Origin: Sphingobacteruim zhuxiongii
GTDB taxonomy: Bacteria; Bacteroidota; Bacteroidia; Sphingobacteriales; Sphingobacteriaceae
Direction of reading: 5' to 3'
DNA: 64,000 nt
NCBI RefSeq assembly: GCF_009557615.1
Contig: NZ_CP045652.1
Span: forward strand, 806,001 to 870,000
The number at the start of each line of letters is the position of its first letter. Within the stretch, counting starts at the first letter, position 1. Below, in pieces: positions 54,758 through 64,000 of the stretch. A program made the position numbers and the translations under genes. A model generated the notes under the pieces. That model was not told the DNA's origin. It ran no database searches and saw nothing but the letters and a program-made list of their open reading frames with translations.

Positions 54758-54787
54758 CGAAGGGCTGTCGATTAAGACGGCCCTTCG
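54758..54787 (+). terminator. Terminator after pyrB
   Basis: CGAAGGGC (54758-54765) pairs with GCCCTTCG (54780-54787), with partial pairing inside (GTC/GAC). The T-run is short. The rest of the 300-bp gap has several GTTAAC-like words but no clear promoter. Confidence 0.75.
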
Positions 54788-55030: not shown

Positions 55031-58000
55031 ATGTATAAAAAAATTTACCAGGTAGGTGTCGCGTTGAGCTTGATGAGTACACCTGTATTCGCACAGCATT
55101 CCGCTTGGCAAGAGGTGAACAAAGCTTATAAGGAGGGTTTGGAGCTATATGAGCGTGGCAAATACAGTTCAGCAGCAAAGCAGTTTGATATTGTAGAGGA
55201 TATCCGAACGAAATCTACACTGCAACTGGACGAAACTGAAGAGTTAAGCTTATTAAAAGAGAATGTTCGATTCTTCCAAGCAGTTTGTGCTTTAGAACTT
55301 GGTGAATCAGATGCTGAAAATAGATTCTTAAAATATATTCGTGATTTCCCGGCTTCCGCAAATTCAAAGGCTGCATATTTCCAGATTGGTAAATCATACT
55401 ATGCTAAGCAAGATTATGCAAAGGCAATTGAATGGTTTGAGAAAATCGATAGTAAGAATTTGGCAGGTGCTGAGAATACTGAATATAGATTTAAACTTGC
55501 ATATGCTAAGTTTATGACCGGCGATTACGAAGCTTCGAAGCCTGTTTTCACTGAACTAAAAGATAAATCGGGCCAGTATCAAGAGGCTTCAATTTACTAT
55601 TACGCTTATTTGAGCTATTTAGATCAGGAATATAAAACAGCTTTAAACGAATTTGAACGTTTAGAGGGGTCAAAAACATATGAGAACTCGTATCCGTATT
55701 ATATTACGGCATTATACTTCTTAGACAAGCGTTATGATGAGGTATTAGCTTATGCACTTCCAAAACTTCAAAGTACAAAGCAAGAGAGCGAGACAGAAAT
55801 GTTTCGTATCGTAGCGGCGACTTACTTTATCAAAGGAGATTTGGCAAAGTCTAAAGAATATTACGACAAGTTCCAAGCTCAAGATCAAGGAAAGACTCAA
55901 AATAATCAGGATAGTTACCAAATCGGTTATATCAACTATAAATTGGGGAACTATGAGAAGGCAATCCAAGAGTTAGAGAAATTGGGCGAGCCAGATGCGT
56001 ATTTCCAAAGTGCAATGATTACCCTAGGGGATTCATTCTTAAAAACTGGGAATAAACAGAGTGCTAGAAATGCTTTCTTCCGAGCTTCGAAGTTAGACTT
56101 TGATCCACAATTGAAAGAAGAGGGTTTATTTAACTACGCTAAATTGTCATATGACTTGGAATTCCACCAAGTTGCGCTAGATGCCGTTCAGGAGTATATT
56201 AAAACTTATCCTAAATCGAAGCGTAATGAAGAAGCAAAAACATTATTAGCGGAGGTTTTATTAAGTACTAAAAATTACCGTGCTGCTGTAGACGTTTTAG
56301 AAGATTTAGATAGAAGAAGTAAGGAAGCAAATGCTGCCTACCAAAAGGTGACTTTCTACCGTGGTTTAGAGTATTACAATGAGCGTGCTTTTGAAAACGG
56401 TATCTCTATGTTTATGCGCTCTGAAGCGAATCGTTACGATGAGGAGATTTATGCTTTATCAACGTATTGGAAAGCAGAAGCAATGTATGAGGTTCGTAAG
56501 TATAAAGAAGCAGTTGCAAACTTTAATAAGTTCTTACAATTGCCTGCGGCTCGTAAGACCGATGTATACAATTACGCGAATTACGCTTTAGCTTACGCTG
56601 CATTCCGTGCAGACAACTATAGCACTGCTGCCAACTATTTTGAACGCTTTTTATCTGGCGGAGGAAAAGATGGCATTGACTTAAATACTAGAAATGACGC
56701 AATGGCGCGTGCTGCTGACTCTTACTTAGCAATTAAGAACTATAGTAAGGCAGCAAATTATTACGATCGTTTAATTGCTTCTGGAGCTCAATCTCAGGAT
56801 TATGCTTTATTCCAGAAAGGTATTTTATTAGGACTTCAAGGAAATAACCAAGCGAAGGTTGAAACGTTGAATTCTGTAATGGCAAAGTATCCGAAATCGA
56901 ACTATGCGGATGATGTTGCCTTCGAGGTTCCTTATACTTACTTCTTAATGGGGCAACATGACTTAGCAATCACTGGATTGCAGAAGATGGTCGAGCAATA
57001 CCCAAGAAGTTCTTATGTTCCTAGAGCTTTAACGACAATCGGATTAGTACAGTACAACAAAGACGATAATGATGCTGCGTTGGCTACTTTCCAACGTGTA
57101 GTTAATCAATATCCAACAACCGACGAAGCAAAACAAGCATTATCGTCGATTGAAAATATCTACTTGGATAAGGGAGATGCATCTGGATACATTCGCTATG
57201 CGACAAGTACAAATATTGGAGATTTAAGTACCGCAGAGCAAGATGCGCATGCATTCTCTGTTGCACGTACTTTATTTGATCGAGGTAATCACCAAGCAAC
57301 TGTGGAAGCTGTAAATGCATACTTCGATAAATTCCCTAAACCTATTCAAGAGAAGCACGCACGTTTCTTGCGTGCAGAGTCTAATGCTGCATTAGGTAAA
57401 GACAAAGAAGCAATGCACGACTTCAATATCATTATGAATGATTGGACGTCTGCTTATACAGAGCGTACGTTAATTTCTGTAGCGAAGCTACATTTACGTA
57501 ATAAAGCTTATAACGAAGCTGTTCAGGTATTAAAGAAACTAGAATTAACGTCTGAATATAAAGAGAACTATGGCTGGGCAGTGAATAACTTACTGGTTAG
57601 TTACTTTAACATTGGCGACTATGCAGAGACGCTAACCTATGCGAATATCATCAAGAAGTATGAAAAGGCTTCAGAGGAAGATGTCGCGAAGGCGCATTTA
57701 TATGCAGCAAAAGCTTATTTAGCAACAAGCAAAGGTTCTGAAGGAATGAAAGAATTAAACCTTGCGGCGTTAAAATCAAAAACAGAAACTGGCGCAGAAG
57801 CACGTTATCTTGTAGCAGAACAACAAGTGAAGAACAAGAACTACGATGGTGCGATTAAGTCAGCGATGGATATTTCAGATTCGTTCTCATCATACGATCT
57901 TTGGGTAGCTAAAGGATTTATCTTAATGGCCAAAGCCTATATCGGTAAGGGCGATAAATTCCAAGCGAAATCTACTTTGGAAAGTATTATTGACAACTAC

Positions 58001-58060
58001 GAAAACACTACAGATGGTGTGTTGGATGAGGCAAAGAATCTATTAGCAACAATTAAATAA
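55031..58060 (+). CDS. Large secreted tetratricopeptide-repeat protein
   Basis: From ATG 55031 the protein has 1009 residues; the frame opens 54 nt earlier but only this start gives a signal peptide ('MYKKIYQVGVALSLMSTPVF', cleaved near 'AQ'). The whole mature chain is made of TPR-like helical pairs (for example 'AAYFQIGKSYYAKQDYAKAI', 'GNYEKAIQELEKLGE', 'YADDVAFEVPYTYFLMGQHD'), a superhelix for protein binding in the periplasm. Segments resemble the BamD/YbgF type. It is 12 bp upstream of the barrel gene and heads the cluster that ends with tonB. Confidence 0.9.
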   Translation: MYKKIYQVGVALSLMSTPVFAQHSAWQEVNKAYKEGLELYERGKYSSAAKQFDIVEDIRTKSTLQLDETEELSLLKENVRFFQAVCALELGESDAENRFLKYIRDFPASANSKAAYFQIGKSYYAKQDYAKAIEWFEKIDSKNLAGAENTEYRFKLAYAKFMTGDYEASKPVFTELKDKSGQYQEASIYYYAYLSYLDQEYKTALNEFERLEGSKTYENSYPYYITALYFLDKRYDEVLAYALPKLQSTKQESETEMFRIVAATYFIKGDLAKSKEYYDKFQAQDQGKTQNNQDSYQIGYINYKLGNYEKAIQELEKLGEPDAYFQSAMITLGDSFLKTGNKQSARNAFFRASKLDFDPQLKEEGLFNYAKLSYDLEFHQVALDAVQEYIKTYPKSKRNEEAKTLLAEVLLSTKNYRAAVDVLEDLDRRSKEANAAYQKVTFYRGLEYYNERAFENGISMFMRSEANRYDEEIYALSTYWKAEAMYEVRKYKEAVANFNKFLQLPAARKTDVYNYANYALAYAAFRADNYSTAANYFERFLSGGGKDGIDLNTRNDAMARAADSYLAIKNYSKAANYYDRLIASGAQSQDYALFQKGILLGLQGNNQAKVETLNSVMAKYPKSNYADDVAFEVPYTYFLMGQHDLAITGLQKMVEQYPRSSYVPRALTTIGLVQYNKDDNDAALATFQRVVNQYPTTDEAKQALSSIENIYLDKGDASGYIRYATSTNIGDLSTAEQDAHAFSVARTLFDRGNHQATVEAVNAYFDKFPKPIQEKHARFLRAESNAALGKDKEAMHDFNIIMNDWTSAYTERTLISVAKLHLRNKAYNEAVQVLKKLELTSEYKENYGWAVNNLLVSYFNIGDYAETLTYANIIKKYEKASEEDVAKAHLYAAKAYLATSKGSEGMKELNLAALKSKTETGAEARYLVAEQQVKNKNYDGAIKSAMDISDSFSSYDLWVAKGFILMAKAYIGKGDKFQAKSTLESIIDNYENTTDGVLDEAKNLLATIK

Positions 58061-58072
58061 GAATAGGAAAAG

Positions 58073-59800
58073 ATGAAGTTGAATACTATAGTAAAACAAT
58101 CTGCGCTTTTAACCGTGTTATTGGCAATGGGATCACAAGCCTATGCGCAACGTGATACTACGAGTCGACCAGTGACACTAGATTCATTTGATATTGTTCG
58201 TGACTACCGACCTATTCTTGCGGATGCTGTAAAAATCCGTCGTAGCCCTGATATGTCAAACAAAAGGGAATACATGCCTAAGCTAAACTATGGCAATGTA
58301 CCTGATAAAAAATTAGATATTAATACAGGTCTTAAGGAGTTGAAAGTAATGGAAACTCCATTCTCTAAGATCATTGACCATAACAGCAATTACGTGAAGT
58401 TAGGCGTTGGTAACTTAGGAACTATTCTAGGTGAAGCCTATTTTGCTGTCGAAGATTATGAAGATATCCGCTTCGGAGGTTTTGTGAAACACCTAAATCA
58501 AAAAGGGAATCTTGATGATCAGAAATTCTCAAGACAAGAAGTTGGTGTGTTTGGGCGTCGTATATTTCCAATGTTTACTTTAAATGGTTTGGTTGGATAC
58601 AATGGGTTTGGTACTCGTTTTTACGGAATCCCTTACGATGTAGATAAGAATAATTTGAATCCTACTCGTGAAGCGCAACGCTTTAATGATATTTATTTTT
58701 CTGGTGAACTAACTAGTAATTATGATCCAGCAAATGAGGATGCGGTAAGCTATTCTGTAAAGGCAGATGCCTATACCTATAAAGATAAGTTTGACGGTAA
58801 AGAGAATTCGGTTGCTTTATCTGGATATTTAAATAAGCGTCTTCGTACCTTTAATGTTGGAGCAAATGTTGCTTTGGATTTCAATAGTATCGGCGGCGTA
58901 AATACACCGGATGGTAATTTGAACAATTCGATTGTCAATGCAAATCCTTACATAAAATTCAAAGGTGATAATTACAATATTACACTAGGAGCGAACATTG
59001 TTTCTGAATTTGGTGATAGCACAAGGTTTAACATCTTCCCTGTAGCAGAGATTGATTTCTCACTAGTACCGGGATACTTCTATATTTTTGGAGGGGTTAA
59101 AGGTGGTGTAGAGAAAGGTTCATTCCGCAGCTTTACGAAAACAAATCCTTATTTAGGGCTGACGCCAAATATCATGAATACAGTGGAACGCATGAATATT
59201 TATGGTGGTATTAAAGGAAATGCTGGTGCAACATTCGGATATAAAGTAAAAGCATTCTATAGACAAGTTGAAGGTCTTCCAATGTTTGTGAATAATATGG
59301 ACCGCCCATTCCAATTTGACTTAGTTTATGATGGAGACGGCGATAAGGCATTAAAGCATGTAGGTATTGAAGGAGAAATCAATGTTCGTTTATCTGCATT
59401 AGTAAACTTGGGTGGACGCTTGAATATTGATAACTACACAACAGTATCACAAGAAGAAGCATGGCACTTGCCTAAGATGCGTCTAGCAGCGAATGCAAGA
59501 TTCAATATCTCTGAGAAATTATATATAGATGCAGAAGCGCTATTCCACGGAAATGCAATTGCTCGCGAATACACTTATACAGTAGATCCTGTCACCAATA
59601 TGGCGACACCTTCTGCTAGCTATGAAAAAACGACAATTCCATCATTCTTTGATTTGAGTGCAGGAGCAGAGTATAAAGCAACGAAGCAATTGGGAATTTT
59701 TGTAAAGGCAAATAATATGTTCAATACGGAATATTCGCGCTACCTATACTACCCGAAACTAGGATTTAATATTTTAGGTGGTATTAATTTTTCGTTTTAA
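58073..59800 (+). CDS. Outer-membrane beta-barrel protein (TonB-receptor-like, without plug)
   Basis: The 575-residue protein has a signal peptide ending at 'GSQAYAQ'. Near the mature N-terminus is 'VRDYRPILADAVKIRRSPD', a motif shared by Bacteroidota proteins found beside such TPR genes. The rest has amphipathic strands and ends with aromatic 'GGINFSF'. It is shorter than true TonB receptors and has no recognisable plug. It probably partners with the TPR protein before it and is powered by, or structurally linked to, the exbB-exbD-tonB genes after it. Confidence 0.83.
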   Translation: MKLNTIVKQSALLTVLLAMGSQAYAQRDTTSRPVTLDSFDIVRDYRPILADAVKIRRSPDMSNKREYMPKLNYGNVPDKKLDINTGLKELKVMETPFSKIIDHNSNYVKLGVGNLGTILGEAYFAVEDYEDIRFGGFVKHLNQKGNLDDQKFSRQEVGVFGRRIFPMFTLNGLVGYNGFGTRFYGIPYDVDKNNLNPTREAQRFNDIYFSGELTSNYDPANEDAVSYSVKADAYTYKDKFDGKENSVALSGYLNKRLRTFNVGANVALDFNSIGGVNTPDGNLNNSIVNANPYIKFKGDNYNITLGANIVSEFGDSTRFNIFPVAEIDFSLVPGYFYIFGGVKGGVEKGSFRSFTKTNPYLGLTPNIMNTVERMNIYGGIKGNAGATFGYKVKAFYRQVEGLPMFVNNMDRPFQFDLVYDGDGDKALKHVGIEGEINVRLSALVNLGGRLNIDNYTTVSQEEAWHLPKMRLAANARFNISEKLYIDAEALFHGNAIAREYTYTVDPVTNMATPSASYEKTTIPSFFDLSAGAEYKATKQLGIFVKANNMFNTEYSRYLYYPKLGFNILGGINFSF

Positions 59801-59836
59801 GTCGACAAACTTTAACTTTGCAGCTTTAACGCAACA

Positions 59837-60910
59837 ATGGATTTAGGTAAATACATTCATCAACTTTTAAAACGCAGGAACGAAGTCTATGTGAAAGGCT
59901 TAGGTACGTTCAAACGTATCCACACATCTTCGGTCTATGACGAGAAAAAGGCAATGTATCTGCCTCCTGTTACTTACTTGGAGTTCGACGCCAAATCGAA
60001 AGACGGTTTTGATTTTGTAGATTACGTTCAACAATCTCAACAACTATCTCGTAGTGATGCCGAACAACAAGTAGAAGAACATGTAATTCAATTGTTGGAA
60101 AACATTAAAGACCATGGAGTTGGTGTTTTACATCGCTTAGGACAGTTTATTAAACATGGGAACTCTTTAGTGTTTAAAGCGGAGGATCTCTCTGGATTCC
60201 ATTTACAGCCAGTCGAAGGTACCCAGGAAGAAGTTCCAGTACAGCCAATCGCTGCTGAAGTAGATTCAGTAGAAACTATAGATGAAGAGCCAATAGAGGA
60301 GGCTGCAATCGCTGAAGTAGAAAATGTAGAGGAGCCTGAAGTTGAAGAGCCAGCAAATTTAATAGAAGAGCCAACCTTGCCTGAAGAAGAACCTTATTTG
60401 GAACAAGAAGTAAAATCTTCGAATAAAGCGACCTGGTATATGATCGCTGCAATTGTTGCCTTGGGGATTATCGGAACATTGTTCTATTTAAATCGTACAG
60501 CACATACGCAGGAGCCTCAAATTACAGATAGTGTTGCTCAATCACCTGTTTCTACAGTAGATACGGTACTTACAGAGCCACAAGATACATTGGCAAACTC
60601 AGTAGACAGCATTGCTATAGACACCGCGAAACAAGTAGTAAACTCGGATGCAAAGCCTTTAATACCAGCAAATCACCATTATCAAGTCGTTATTGGTTCG
60701 CATAGAACTTTAGCGCAGGCCTATGAACAAGCAGAGTCGTTTAATAAAGCAGGAGTTACATCCGTTCGAGTAATACCAAGTAAGCTCGCGAAGAACCTTA
60801 AAAAGGTTATTTGGGATTCTTATGAGACGAAAGAACAAGCAGATTCTGCTTTACGTTATGTACAAAAACGATACGTTGCTGACGCATGGTCAGGACCTAT
60901 TAATAAATAA
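59837..60910 (+). CDS. HU-CCDC81 domain protein with one membrane helix and a C-terminal SPOR domain
   Basis: The 357-residue protein has no N-terminal signal. Residues 1 to about 125 hold two HU-like units ('YIHQLLKRRNEVYVKGLGTF' and 'IKDHGVGVLHRLGQF'), then a Glu/Val/Pro-rich acidic linker (about 130-195), one membrane helix ('WYMIAAIVALGIIGTLFYL', about 199-219), a Thr/Asp-rich stretch and a SPOR domain (about 280-355; 'HYQVVIGSHRTLAQAYEQAE'). SPOR domains bind denuded peptidoglycan at the septum. The topology places HU-like domains in the cytoplasm and SPOR in the periplasm. It lies 36 bp after the barrel gene and 39 bp before exbB. Confidence 0.85.
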   Translation: MDLGKYIHQLLKRRNEVYVKGLGTFKRIHTSSVYDEKKAMYLPPVTYLEFDAKSKDGFDFVDYVQQSQQLSRSDAEQQVEEHVIQLLENIKDHGVGVLHRLGQFIKHGNSLVFKAEDLSGFHLQPVEGTQEEVPVQPIAAEVDSVETIDEEPIEEAAIAEVENVEEPEVEEPANLIEEPTLPEEEPYLEQEVKSSNKATWYMIAAIVALGIIGTLFYLNRTAHTQEPQITDSVAQSPVSTVDTVLTEPQDTLANSVDSIAIDTAKQVVNSDAKPLIPANHHYQVVIGSHRTLAQAYEQAESFNKAGVTSVRVIPSKLAKNLKKVIWDSYETKEQADSALRYVQKRYVADAWSGPINK

Positions 60911-60949
60911 GTAAATCAATCAATCAAAACAGCATACAATCATTTAACT

Positions 60950-61648
60950 ATGTCATTAGTACAGACCCCACTCACCGTTGATACCTTAAATCAAGTTCAA
61001 CAACAAACGGTAGCTCTAGCTACTCAAGAGGATTTAAACTTAATCCAACTTTTGATGAAAGGTGGATGGATTATGATTCCTATTATTCTATTATTCTTTT
61101 TAGGATTAGTAATCTTTTTCGAACGTTATATAACAATCAGTAAGGCTGGAAAGTCTGAAGGTGGTTTATTAGCGCAAGTAAAGAGCAATGTGCTTTCAGG
61201 GAAACTTGATGCAGCAATGGCGGTTTGTCGTTCTTCAAACTCAGCTTTAGCGCGTATGTTGCAAAAAGGCTTGACTCGTGTTGGTCGTCCAATTAAGGAT
61301 ATTGAAGGTGCAATTGAAAACCAAGGTAAACTAGAAGTGTCTCGTCTAGAGAAAAACATTAATATCTTAGGTATTATCGCCGGTATTGCGCCCATGTTAG
61401 GTTTCGTAGGAACAATCTTTGGTGTAATTCAAATCTTCCGCGACGTTGAGGTTGCTGGAGGTATTGATATTGGCTCTGTTTCTGGAGGTTTATATGTAAA
61501 AATGATTGCATCAGCGTCAGGTTTAACGATCGGTATCTTAGCTTATATTGGTTACCATATCTTAAACATGATGGTTGAGCGCTTAATCCTTCGCATCGAG
61601 ACCGATGCTATCGAGTTTATCGATCTATTGGATGAGCCTAGCCTGTAA
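60950..61648 (+). CDS. exbB: ExbB/TolQ/MotA family proton channel subunit
   Basis: The 232-residue protein has three helices: one near 37-56 ('WIMIPIILLFFLGLVIFFER') and a pair near 145-170 and 185-210 ('ILGIIAGIAPMLGFVGTIFG', 'MIASASGLTIGILAYIGYHI'). Residues typical of the ExbB pore are present. With ExbD it converts the proton gradient into motion of TonB. Its genetic partners are exbD and tonB downstream. Confidence 0.93.
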   Translation: MSLVQTPLTVDTLNQVQQQTVALATQEDLNLIQLLMKGGWIMIPIILLFFLGLVIFFERYITISKAGKSEGGLLAQVKSNVLSGKLDAAMAVCRSSNSALARMLQKGLTRVGRPIKDIEGAIENQGKLEVSRLEKNINILGIIAGIAPMLGFVGTIFGVIQIFRDVEVAGGIDIGSVSGGLYVKMIASASGLTIGILAYIGYHILNMMVERLILRIETDAIEFIDLLDEPSL

Positions 61649-61681
61649 TCTTTTTTTTGAAAACCCCTTGAGCGAGAAAAA

Positions 61682-62089
61682 ATGAATTTACGCAATAGAA
61701 GAAATAAACCTACTGCAGAGGTGCATACAGCAGCACTGAATGATATCATGTTCTTTTTGATGTTATTCTTCCTGTTGGCATCTGCAGTATCTAATCCGCA
61801 GGTGGTAAAATTGCTCTTGCCTAAATCAAGTGCAGGAGAGCAATCTGTGGCGAAGAAAACAATGACCATTTCCATTACTAGCGATTTGTTATATCACGTC
61901 GATAAACAAGCAGTTCCTTTGGAAACCTTGGAATCATTGATCCAATCCAATATGGCTACTGGTGAAGAATTGACTATTATGCTTTACGCGGATAGCACAG
62001 TTCCAATTCAGAATGTGATTTCTGTAATGGATATCGCTAACAAGTTAAAGGTGAAGATGGTTTTGGCAACAGAACCTAAGAAAGACTAA
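61682..62089 (+). CDS. exbD: ExbD/TolR family protein
   Basis: The 135-residue protein has one membrane helix carrying the essential proton-binding Asp ('ALNDIMFFLMLFFLLASAV', about 20-38), followed by a periplasmic ExbD fold. It is the stator partner of ExbB. The spacing of 33 bp from exbB indicates one operon. Confidence 0.94.
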   Translation: MNLRNRRNKPTAEVHTAALNDIMFFLMLFFLLASAVSNPQVVKLLLPKSSAGEQSVAKKTMTISITSDLLYHVDKQAVPLETLESLIQSNMATGEELTIMLYADSTVPIQNVISVMDIANKLKVKMVLATEPKKD

Positions 62090-62152
62090 AATAATACGGT
62101 CGGATTAAACGTTTTAAATTTAAGAAGGTCGAAATTGGACAGCATTTAGGAT

Positions 62153-62974
62153 ATGTATTACAATCAGTATCAAGAAGAAAATAATCTACCAAAGGCACTA
62201 GGGATATCATCTTTAGTTATGGCGGGGTTGCTCGCTATCGGATTCTTCATTGTATTTTCAGAAGATCTTCCAGAGTATGGAATGGGAGGTATTATTGTAA
62301 ACTACGGTACGTCTCCAGAAGGTATGGGCGATGATTATATGAGCGTCGACGAGCCTTCGATGGACGAGAATGCCAACAATGTCCGTCCAGATAAAATTGA
62401 TCCTACCAGCACACCTATTCCGACTCCAACCCAGCAAACGGCAGACAAAGCAGTAGCAACGCAGGACGTAGAAGATGCGCCGGTCGTGAATAAGGCTGAG
62501 AAGCCAGTAAAGGCGGTCGCTGAGCAATCTACTACAGTGAAGAAAGACGCAACTGCGGCAGTCAACCCGAATGCGCTGTATAAGGGTAAGAAGAATAATG
62601 CGAAGGGTACAGGAGATGGTACAGGTTCAACACCAGGAAATCAAGGTTCTAATCTTGGCGATCCATTAGCCAGTAACTACGGTGATGGGGGATCAGGTTT
62701 TGGGAACATGATGCTTTCTTTAGAGAATCGTCGCTTCACAGTGCCTCCTAAAATTGATGACAACGGACAACAAACCGGTGTTGTTAAAATTGAATTTACT
62801 GTAGATAATCGTGGAAATGTTACTCGAGCTAGACAGGCGAAAGGAACAACCATTGCTGACTACAGCTTAATCCAGAAATGTATAAACGCTGTTCAAAAAT
62901 CGCGTTTAAATGAGCTTCCAAACGCTCCAAATTCTCAAACTGGATTACTTACCTTCAGATTCAGAGTTAGATAA
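62153..62974 (+). CDS. tonB: TonB-like energy transducer
   Basis: The 273-residue protein has one N-terminal membrane helix ('LGISSLVMAGLLAIGFFIVF', about 16-35), a long flexible region rich in Pro, Thr, Lys, Ala and then Gly/Asn, and a C-terminal TonB-like domain ('GVVKIEFTVDNRGNVTRARQ', 'SRLNELPNAPNSQTGLLTFR'). It ends 11 bp before folC. The dedicated exbB-exbD-tonB set suggests it serves the envelope module upstream, though it could energise other receptors. Confidence 0.9.
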   Translation: MYYNQYQEENNLPKALGISSLVMAGLLAIGFFIVFSEDLPEYGMGGIIVNYGTSPEGMGDDYMSVDEPSMDENANNVRPDKIDPTSTPIPTPTQQTADKAVATQDVEDAPVVNKAEKPVKAVAEQSTTVKKDATAAVNPNALYKGKKNNAKGTGDGTGSTPGNQGSNLGDPLASNYGDGGSGFGNMMLSLENRRFTVPPKIDDNGQQTGVVKIEFTVDNRGNVTRARQAKGTTIADYSLIQKCINAVQKSRLNELPNAPNSQTGLLTFRFRVR

Positions 62975-62985
62975 TAATTCATCAT

Positions 62986-64000
62986 ATGAAAACATTTGCA
63001 GAGGTAATCGAGTATTTATATGCTCGATTACCTATGTTTACTCGTGATGGCGCTTCTGCCATCAATCCCGATGTAGATAACACATTGCTATTATGCGAAG
63101 CATTGGGTAATCCACAGCAACAGTTTAAATCGGTTCATATCGCAGGTACCAATGGTAAGGGCTCAACGTCTCATATGATGGCCTCGGTATTTCAAGCATC
63201 TGGACTTAAAACTGGTCTCTATACATCTCCACATTTAGTCGATTTTAGAGAACGCATTCGTATTGATGGTCAAATGATCCCTCAGAAAAATGTTATTGAT
63301 TTCATCAATGCTAATCAAACATTGATCGAAACTATAAAGCCTTCCTTTTTTGAAGTGACTGTCGCTTTAGCTTTTGATTTCTTTGCGAAGAACAAAGTGG
63401 ATATTGCGGTTATTGAAGTAGGATTAGGGGGACGATTAGACAGTACGAATATTATTCAACCTGAACTAAGTATGATTACCAATATAGGTATGGATCATAT
63501 GAATGTGTTGGGGAATACATTGGAAGAAATCGCTGGTGAGAAAGCCGGAATCATTAAAGAAGGTACGCCTGTTGTGATTTCCGAACGACAAGCTGCTATT
63601 CAACATGTTTTCCAAGATAAAGCCGCAGCGTTGAACGCTTCACTATATTTTGCAAATGACTATTATCAGGTAGAAGCGGTAAATCGAAAGACTGATGGAC
63701 TGTATATTGATATTTTAAATAATGTAAAGCAGGTGTCGACCGTTTGGCATTTAGATCTTGCCGGTGGATATCAACAAAAGAATATTTTAGGAGTATTATA
63801 TGCCATAGATAAACTTCGTGAATTAGGTTTTAATCTTCCTCATGAGAAAGTTGTCTACGGATTAAGCCATGTACAAGAATCAACAGGTTTACGTGGAAGA
63901 TGGCAGACACTTAGCGATCATCCATGGATAATCTGCGATACAGGTCATAATGAAGATGGAATTCGTGAAGTATTAGCAAATCTAGCTAGTTTATCGTACG
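62986..64000 (+). CDS. folC: Folylpolyglutamate/dihydrofolate synthase, 5' part (cut by window edge)
   Basis: Adds glutamate to folates. The frame runs open from ATG 62986 to the window end, 338 residues. Mur-ligase-type motifs are clear: ATP loop 'IAGTNGKGSTSHMMASVFQ', 'GLYTSPHLVDFRERI', 'VIEVGLGGRLDSTNI' and 'GMDHMNVLGNTLEEIAGEKA'. The C-terminal domain is partly visible ('STGLRGRWQTL', 'ICDTGHNEDGIREVL'). It starts 11 bp after tonB. Confidence 0.97.
   Translation, partial: MKTFAEVIEYLYARLPMFTRDGASAINPDVDNTLLLCEALGNPQQQFKSVHIAGTNGKGSTSHMMASVFQASGLKTGLYTSPHLVDFRERIRIDGQMIPQKNVIDFINANQTLIETIKPSFFEVTVALAFDFFAKNKVDIAVIEVGLGGRLDSTNIIQPELSMITNIGMDHMNVLGNTLEEIAGEKAGIIKEGTPVVISERQAAIQHVFQDKAAALNASLYFANDYYQVEAVNRKTDGLYIDILNNVKQVSTVWHLDLAGGYQQKNILGVLYAIDKLRELGFNLPHEKVVYGLSHVQESTGLRGRWQTLSDHPWIICDTGHNEDGIREVLANLASLSY

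Follow-up and report, generated by a model that had tools for sequence, protein, structure and literature searches.

A conserved six-gene cluster of Bacteroidota combining a plug-less receptor-type barrel, TPR and SPOR proteins, and an ExbB-ExbD-TonB motor

Gene products of the cluster

We analyzed a 64,000-nucleotide stretch of the Sphingobacteruim zhuxiongii genome (NZ_CP045652.1, positions 806,001 to 870,000; the window, numbered from its first letter) that contains a run of six genes encoding a predicted periplasmic TPR protein, an outer-membrane barrel, a HU-SPOR protein, and the ExbB, ExbD, and TonB parts of a proton-driven motor. A preliminary description of this DNA had listed six open reading frames on the + strand with gaps of 12 to 64 bp; all six are present, with gaps of 12, 36, 39, 33, and 63 bp, in order. 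The TPR, HU-CCDC81 1 and 2, MotA/ExbB, and ExbD families were matched above or near their Pfam cut-offs. Among named genomes, a sister gene has its nearest relatives in S. paludis (78%) and S. griseoflavum (73%), which makes a Sphingobacterium host very probable.

55031..58060, + strand: TPR gene (open reading frame list and Pfam), encoding a putative periplasmic TPR superhelix protein of 1009 aa with a signal peptide and no lipobox
58073..59800, + strand: barrel gene (open reading frame list, profile searches, and hhalign), encoding a putative outer-membrane barrel of the TonB-dependent-receptor type, no plug, 575 aa, C-terminal Phe
59837..60910, + strand: HU-SPOR gene (Pfam and a profile of its relatives)
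60950..61648, + strand: ExbB/TolQ gene, 232 aa, proton-channel subunit
61682..62089, + strand: ExbD/TolR gene, 135 aa
62153..62974, + strand: TonB/TolA-type transducer gene, 273 aa

The barrel protein has no Pfam match of its own. A profile of 46 barrel sequences matched PDB siderophore receptors over their C-terminal barrel (PfeA, E 1.1e-6), whereas the best non-receptor porin gave E 0.5 and a FadL-type entry E 0.85. When hhalign was run against ten aligned receptors of the same genome, the match had a probability of 98.4 and an E value of 5e-15; its 270 columns lay entirely within the C-terminal barrel half, with none in the receptors' plug. Four of the 46 relatives match the receptor barrel family PF00593 and none matches a plug family, and the mature protein has only ~80 aa ahead of its first strand. 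Because the hhalign match is limited to the barrel and no plug-family match was found, the protein is, judging from these profiles, a barrel of the TonB-dependent-receptor family without a plug; together with the short stretch before the first strand, these results bear out the term "plug-less" that had been applied to it. An AlphaFold model of the barrel from its single sequence, with no relatives, had a pLDDT of 29.

The short region before the barrel includes one conserved element.

58151..58270, + strand: conserved barrel N-terminal tail, residues ~27-66, SFDIVRDYRPILADAVKIRRSPDM

Its pre-strand block, YRPILADAVKIRRSPD, is among the best conserved parts of the barrel within the order, and nine tail residues are invariant across the order's barrels. 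Inspection by eye had suggested a TonB box in the tail (EEIVVERPYKP in relatives), but a box model derived from receptors of the same genome was not above chance in most members. We do not claim a TonB box there, because just 11 of 86 barrels matched at p<0.05; the window barrel is not among the clear matches.

The tail also occurs fused to a TPR protein. A TPR paralogue of 843 aa encoded elsewhere in the genome (L033:8050-10581; G000:C1 near 1726 kb) is without the first ~290 residues of the TPR protein, and the barrel N-terminus and tail stand in their place, with all nine of the invariant tail residues kept. The fusion is found in ~16 genomes, almost all from the same genus, and includes two further paralogues.

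L149:5001-7526: tail-TPR paralogue
L150:5001-7529: tail-TPR paralogue

This arrangement may be taken as a Rosetta-stone hint that the barrel tail and the TPR protein work together; a sceptical reading would make it a leftover of tandem duplication. AlphaFold modeled the TPR part of the natural fusion well, as a regular superhelix, with the tail at pLDDT<50, and a fold search with this model returned generic TPR scaffolds only.

For the TPR protein of the cluster itself, TIGR02795 (ybgF) scored above its cut-off and the CpoB model below. Generic TPRs matched it as well as or better than CpoB in profile searches, and BamD and LapB were among the TPR proteins that scored. An identification as CpoB was rejected: because consensus TPR designs score higher, the protein is not specifically CpoB.

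The third gene product combines three regions.

Residues 3-117 of the 59837..60910 product: HU-CCDC81_1 and HU-CCDC81_2, probably cytosolic
Residues ~198-220: transmembrane (TM) segment
Residues ~281-351: SPOR domain, probably periplasmic

The HU-CCDC81 domain has reportedly been a subject of work by the Aravind group. PF05036 (SPOR) is not matched by the window protein alone, and the assignment as a SPOR protein is upheld by its relatives, 20 of 24 of which match this family, and by a SPOR profile built without the window protein, which gave residues 281-351 a score of 33.4 bits, the highest among 500 shuffles being 8.9. The domain matches CwlC, DedD, and FtsN. Across loci L049-L148, HU and SPOR come and go as modules in the third cluster gene: relatives in family f2 are HU-TM without SPOR, those in f8 are TM-SPOR without HU, and both domains occur in distant families. 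HU-CCDC81 itself is an already described domain (Pfam entries).

Among NCBIfam and PDB entries, the cluster ExbB scores best against TolQ, better than against ExbB. The NCBIfam equivalog cut-offs for TolQ and TolR are not reached; the ExbD family is above its Pfam cut-off, and the transmembrane Asp of ExbD is present (LNDIMFF). TonB_C is weak in the window TonB (20.2 bits versus a cut-off of 24.6), whose C terminus matches TonB (E 1.6e-4) and whose N-terminal part gives a weak match to TolA (E 8e-4). Distant families (L144-L148) keep the motor-contacting His in the transmembrane helix of TonB/TolA; in Sphingobacteriaceae and several other families of the class this residue is replaced. The genome as a whole encodes two ExbB genes, seven TonB_C proteins, and 62 receptor-type barrels, and a canonical exbB-exbD-exbD-tonB motor lies separately in it.

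Gene order and distribution in the phylum

We followed the cluster through a phylum sample of 296 genomes, an order sample of 121 genomes, and 80 neighborhoods fetched class-wide. Every one of the 121 order genomes has the barrel, as do the class genomes of the phylum sample with a single exception, and the TPR gene adjoins it in 78 of the 80 neighborhoods. In 104 of the 121 order genomes (hand count from tables), no more than ~4 kb separates ExbB from the barrel; the exceptions come mostly from one genus, with same-strand insertions of up to 30 kb, and in two of them the barrel and ExbB are on different contigs.

Outside the class, the full order TPR-barrel-SPOR-ExbB-ExbD-TonB recurs in families f16, f20, f30, and f34, and barrel-SPOR-ExbB-ExbD-TonB with no adjoining TPR gene in f21 and f23 (L128, L143, L144). 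A full-length TPR orthologue is encoded elsewhere in the f21 and f23 genomes, as it is in the class genome G172, and all 16 barrel-bearing genomes tested have one, detached cases included. Further families (including f13, f14, f18, f25, f29, f39, f44, and f45) carry TPR and ExbB within ~7.5 kb on one strand. Several class families have split operons, with TPR-barrel alone and ExbB-ExbD-TonB-folC elsewhere (L132, L133, L134, L136, L141). Named by eye, the genes upstream of the barrel in locus L128 include LolA- and FtsK-like ones, and a PDZ-type peptidase-like gene comes after tonB.

Because the order recurs across the phylum, the arrangement is not a chance one. The preliminary description had held that its proposal would fall if the gene order occurred only in close relatives; many families in and outside the class share the order, and the parts co-occur when split, so the arrangement is not confined to close relatives. 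In a tree of ExbB sequences, the detached ExbB fall among the clustered ones, apart from the canonical motor (node value 97), and the system is therefore one old set of parts; most simply, the six-gene operon is ancestral. The E. coli TolQ and ExbB branches in this tree are too long for deciding between TolQ and ExbB descent.

Relation to known systems and possible roles

A TolB profile matched 63 of the 296 phylum genomes, all in family f17; it found no TolB in the genome of the window or in the phylum sample outside f17. All four f17 loci read encode TolB, Pal, and CpoB, with TolQ and TolR as well in the two of sufficient extent. The full-length TPR orthologue shows the complementary pattern: 202 of the 296 genomes carry it, none of them from f17. 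TolB and this TPR protein never occur in the same genome, and the remaining genomes show neither. The f17 genomes gave no barrel match beyond receptor C termini.

Like Tol-Pal (TolQ-TolR-TolA-TolB-Pal-CpoB), the cluster groups within one operon a motor pair, a TonB/TolA-type rod, a TPR protein, and a partner in the outer membrane, and it would share a link to septal peptidoglycan, here through SPOR. It differs in having no TolB or Pal and an added HU-TM-SPOR protein, in using a receptor-type barrel as its outer-membrane partner, and in a TPR protein of ~1000 aa rather than ~260. Pfam searches found no OmpA-type domain, such as Pal carries, among the cluster proteins, and because TolB and Pal are absent the cluster is not a member of Tol-Pal. 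The Ton system resembles it in that ExbB, ExbD, and TonB are encoded together, alongside a barrel homologous to the receptor barrel. Unlike in that system, the cluster barrel is plug-less, mostly has no TonB box above chance, and is co-encoded with TPR and SPOR proteins, with the canonical motor separate. In Myxococcus, the Agl-Glt/Nfs machinery brings together a TolQR-type motor, proteins with TonB motifs, TPR proteins, and outer-membrane barrels; the cluster is likened to it by kinds of component and lacks gliding-type adaptors. PorE, too, has been proposed to fill the Tol-Pal gap (PMC12204202), but it is a lipoprotein whose domains resemble CpoB, TolB, and Pal, and no such protein is encoded in the cluster. 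The same 2025 survey reported tol-pal loci to be missing from Bacteroidetes and suggested that other systems are still to be found (PMC12204202).

The components, their order and co-occurrence, the ancestry of the barrel, the TolB-complementary distribution, and the tail-TPR fusion, all computed here, lead us to a tentative reading that we consider possible but somewhat short of probable: a phylum-ancestral trans-envelope system driven by the proton-motive force, Tol-Pal-like in its working but built differently, with the barrel as its outer-membrane handle. If the six products form a complex, the ExbB-ExbD (TolQR-type) motor would move the TonB-like rod, which would pull the plug-less barrel either itself or by way of the TPR superhelix. 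The HU-TM-SPOR protein would couple the assembly to septal peptidoglycan, placing the machine at division sites, and its HU domains may touch the nucleoid. We infer that the most likely biological role would be to hold and draw in the outer membrane, chiefly at division sites, in bacteria without Tol-Pal. Outer-membrane tethering or constriction is favored by the predicted SPOR and HU domains and by the Tol-Pal-complementary distribution, and the cluster may tie down or pinch in the outer membrane because it is ancient and conserved through a phylum almost all of whose members are without Tol-Pal. More doubtful is the stronger proposal of an undescribed, near-universal Bacteroidota machine in which a TonB-dependent receptor that lost its plug, now a force handle, replaces Tol-Pal in outer-membrane constriction and HU-TM-SPOR links nucleoid, peptidoglycan, and outer membrane. 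Our search of the open-access literature (subscription papers and preprints outside its scope) found no description of the cluster.

Several points weigh against a Tol-Pal-like role. In several families the motor genes are not with TPR-barrel, SPOR is absent from some families (f2) and HU from others (f8), and by profile search the TPR protein is as near to generic TPRs as to CpoB. The mutual exclusion of TolB and the TPR protein is suggestive only, because it rests on one family and so on one evolutionary contrast. PorE has itself been put forward as the Bacteroidota outer-membrane tether (PMC12204202), and ExbB1-ExbD1-TonB1 of Riemerella anatipestifer, the probable counterpart of the motor, can power HemR and the uptake of iron when placed in E. 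coli (PMC4446302, PMC5109031).

The Riemerella system is central to a rival account, in which the cluster encodes a general second Ton motor for many nutrient receptors and the TPR, barrel, and HU-SPOR genes are merely co-transcribed neighbors. There are just two ExbB genes for the 62 receptor barrels of the genome, and several families carry ExbB-ExbD-TonB away from TPR-barrel. In architecture and sizes the TonB1 system equals the detached motor, which makes TonB1 the probable counterpart, or orthologue, of the cluster TonB. In R. anatipestifer, tonB1 is deletable and its single deletion leaves hemin uptake intact, whereas uptake is abolished in the tonB1 tonB2 double mutant (PMC4446302, PMC5109031). 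We nevertheless regard a general motor as unlikely: the six genes are still neighbors in families both within and beyond the class, a canonical motor is also present in the genome, and the orthology of TonB1 is drawn from architecture and sizes only. These data do bear on the claim of a dedicated energised envelope machine. An envelope-spanning, proton-driven assembly of parts that go together stands as a prediction; "dedicated" does not, given the detached motor, and is in doubt, since TonB1, the probable counterpart, can be dispensed with and is able to power a haem receptor. A TonB serving many unrelated receptors had been named beforehand as telling against the proposal, and TonB1 with HemR comes near to this, insofar as the orthology holds.

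Quite unlikely, in our view, is an energised export channel with the barrel as pore and the TPR protein as periplasmic gate or loader, the motor driving secretion (of protein, polysaccharide, or lipid) in the manner of the Glt/Nfs machines of Myxococcus or of the receptor Oar. Paired TPR proteins and barrels are known from export systems (AlgK/AlgE, BcsC), and a barrel without a plug would suit such a role. The loci read have no conserved substrate, enzyme, or transporter gene alongside, however; the cluster is near-universal in the class across lifestyles, and export would leave the SPOR and HU domains unexplained. Oar, a receptor-type barrel, is reported to be needed for PopC secretion (PMC6434023), which speaks for export. 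A motor-powered aid to outer-membrane biogenesis or lipid transport, the TPR protein and barrel assisting insertion or retrograde lipid traffic, would fit the near-universal conservation, the scores of BamD and LapB in the TPR searches, and the lipid roles of Tol-Pal itself (PMC12204202). We consider it very unlikely, as the purified F. johnsoniae BAM complex comprises BamA, D, G, H, M, and P, a set that excludes this barrel, and its BamG is FadL-like (PMC12611786). An identity of the barrel with BamG, and membership of BAM, was rejected on the profile scores (receptor family E 1e-6 versus FadL-type E 0.85) and this list of subunits.

The locus is an ancient, nearly universal candidate for constricting or holding the outer membrane in Bacteroidota without Tol-Pal; if this is true, a nutrient receptor has been turned into a mechanical anchor.

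Flanking genes and boundaries

The six-gene run stands as first described, but that description had left out a co-directional folC, whose start lies 11 bp 3' of tonB and which is the usual neighbor downstream of the motor genes in other loci.

54758..54787, + strand: strong terminator-like hairpin of 12 pairs (8 GC) that sets the cluster off from pyrB, by consensus match only
62986..63999, + strand: folC, continuing beyond the window end

A few genes upstream of the cluster, the window encodes a TMEM260-like protein O-mannosyltransferase (PF11028; 50082-53102). Positions 63002-63033, at the very start of folC, form a hairpin of 14 pairs that has a short T run and may act as terminator or attenuator between these two genes, tonB and folC.

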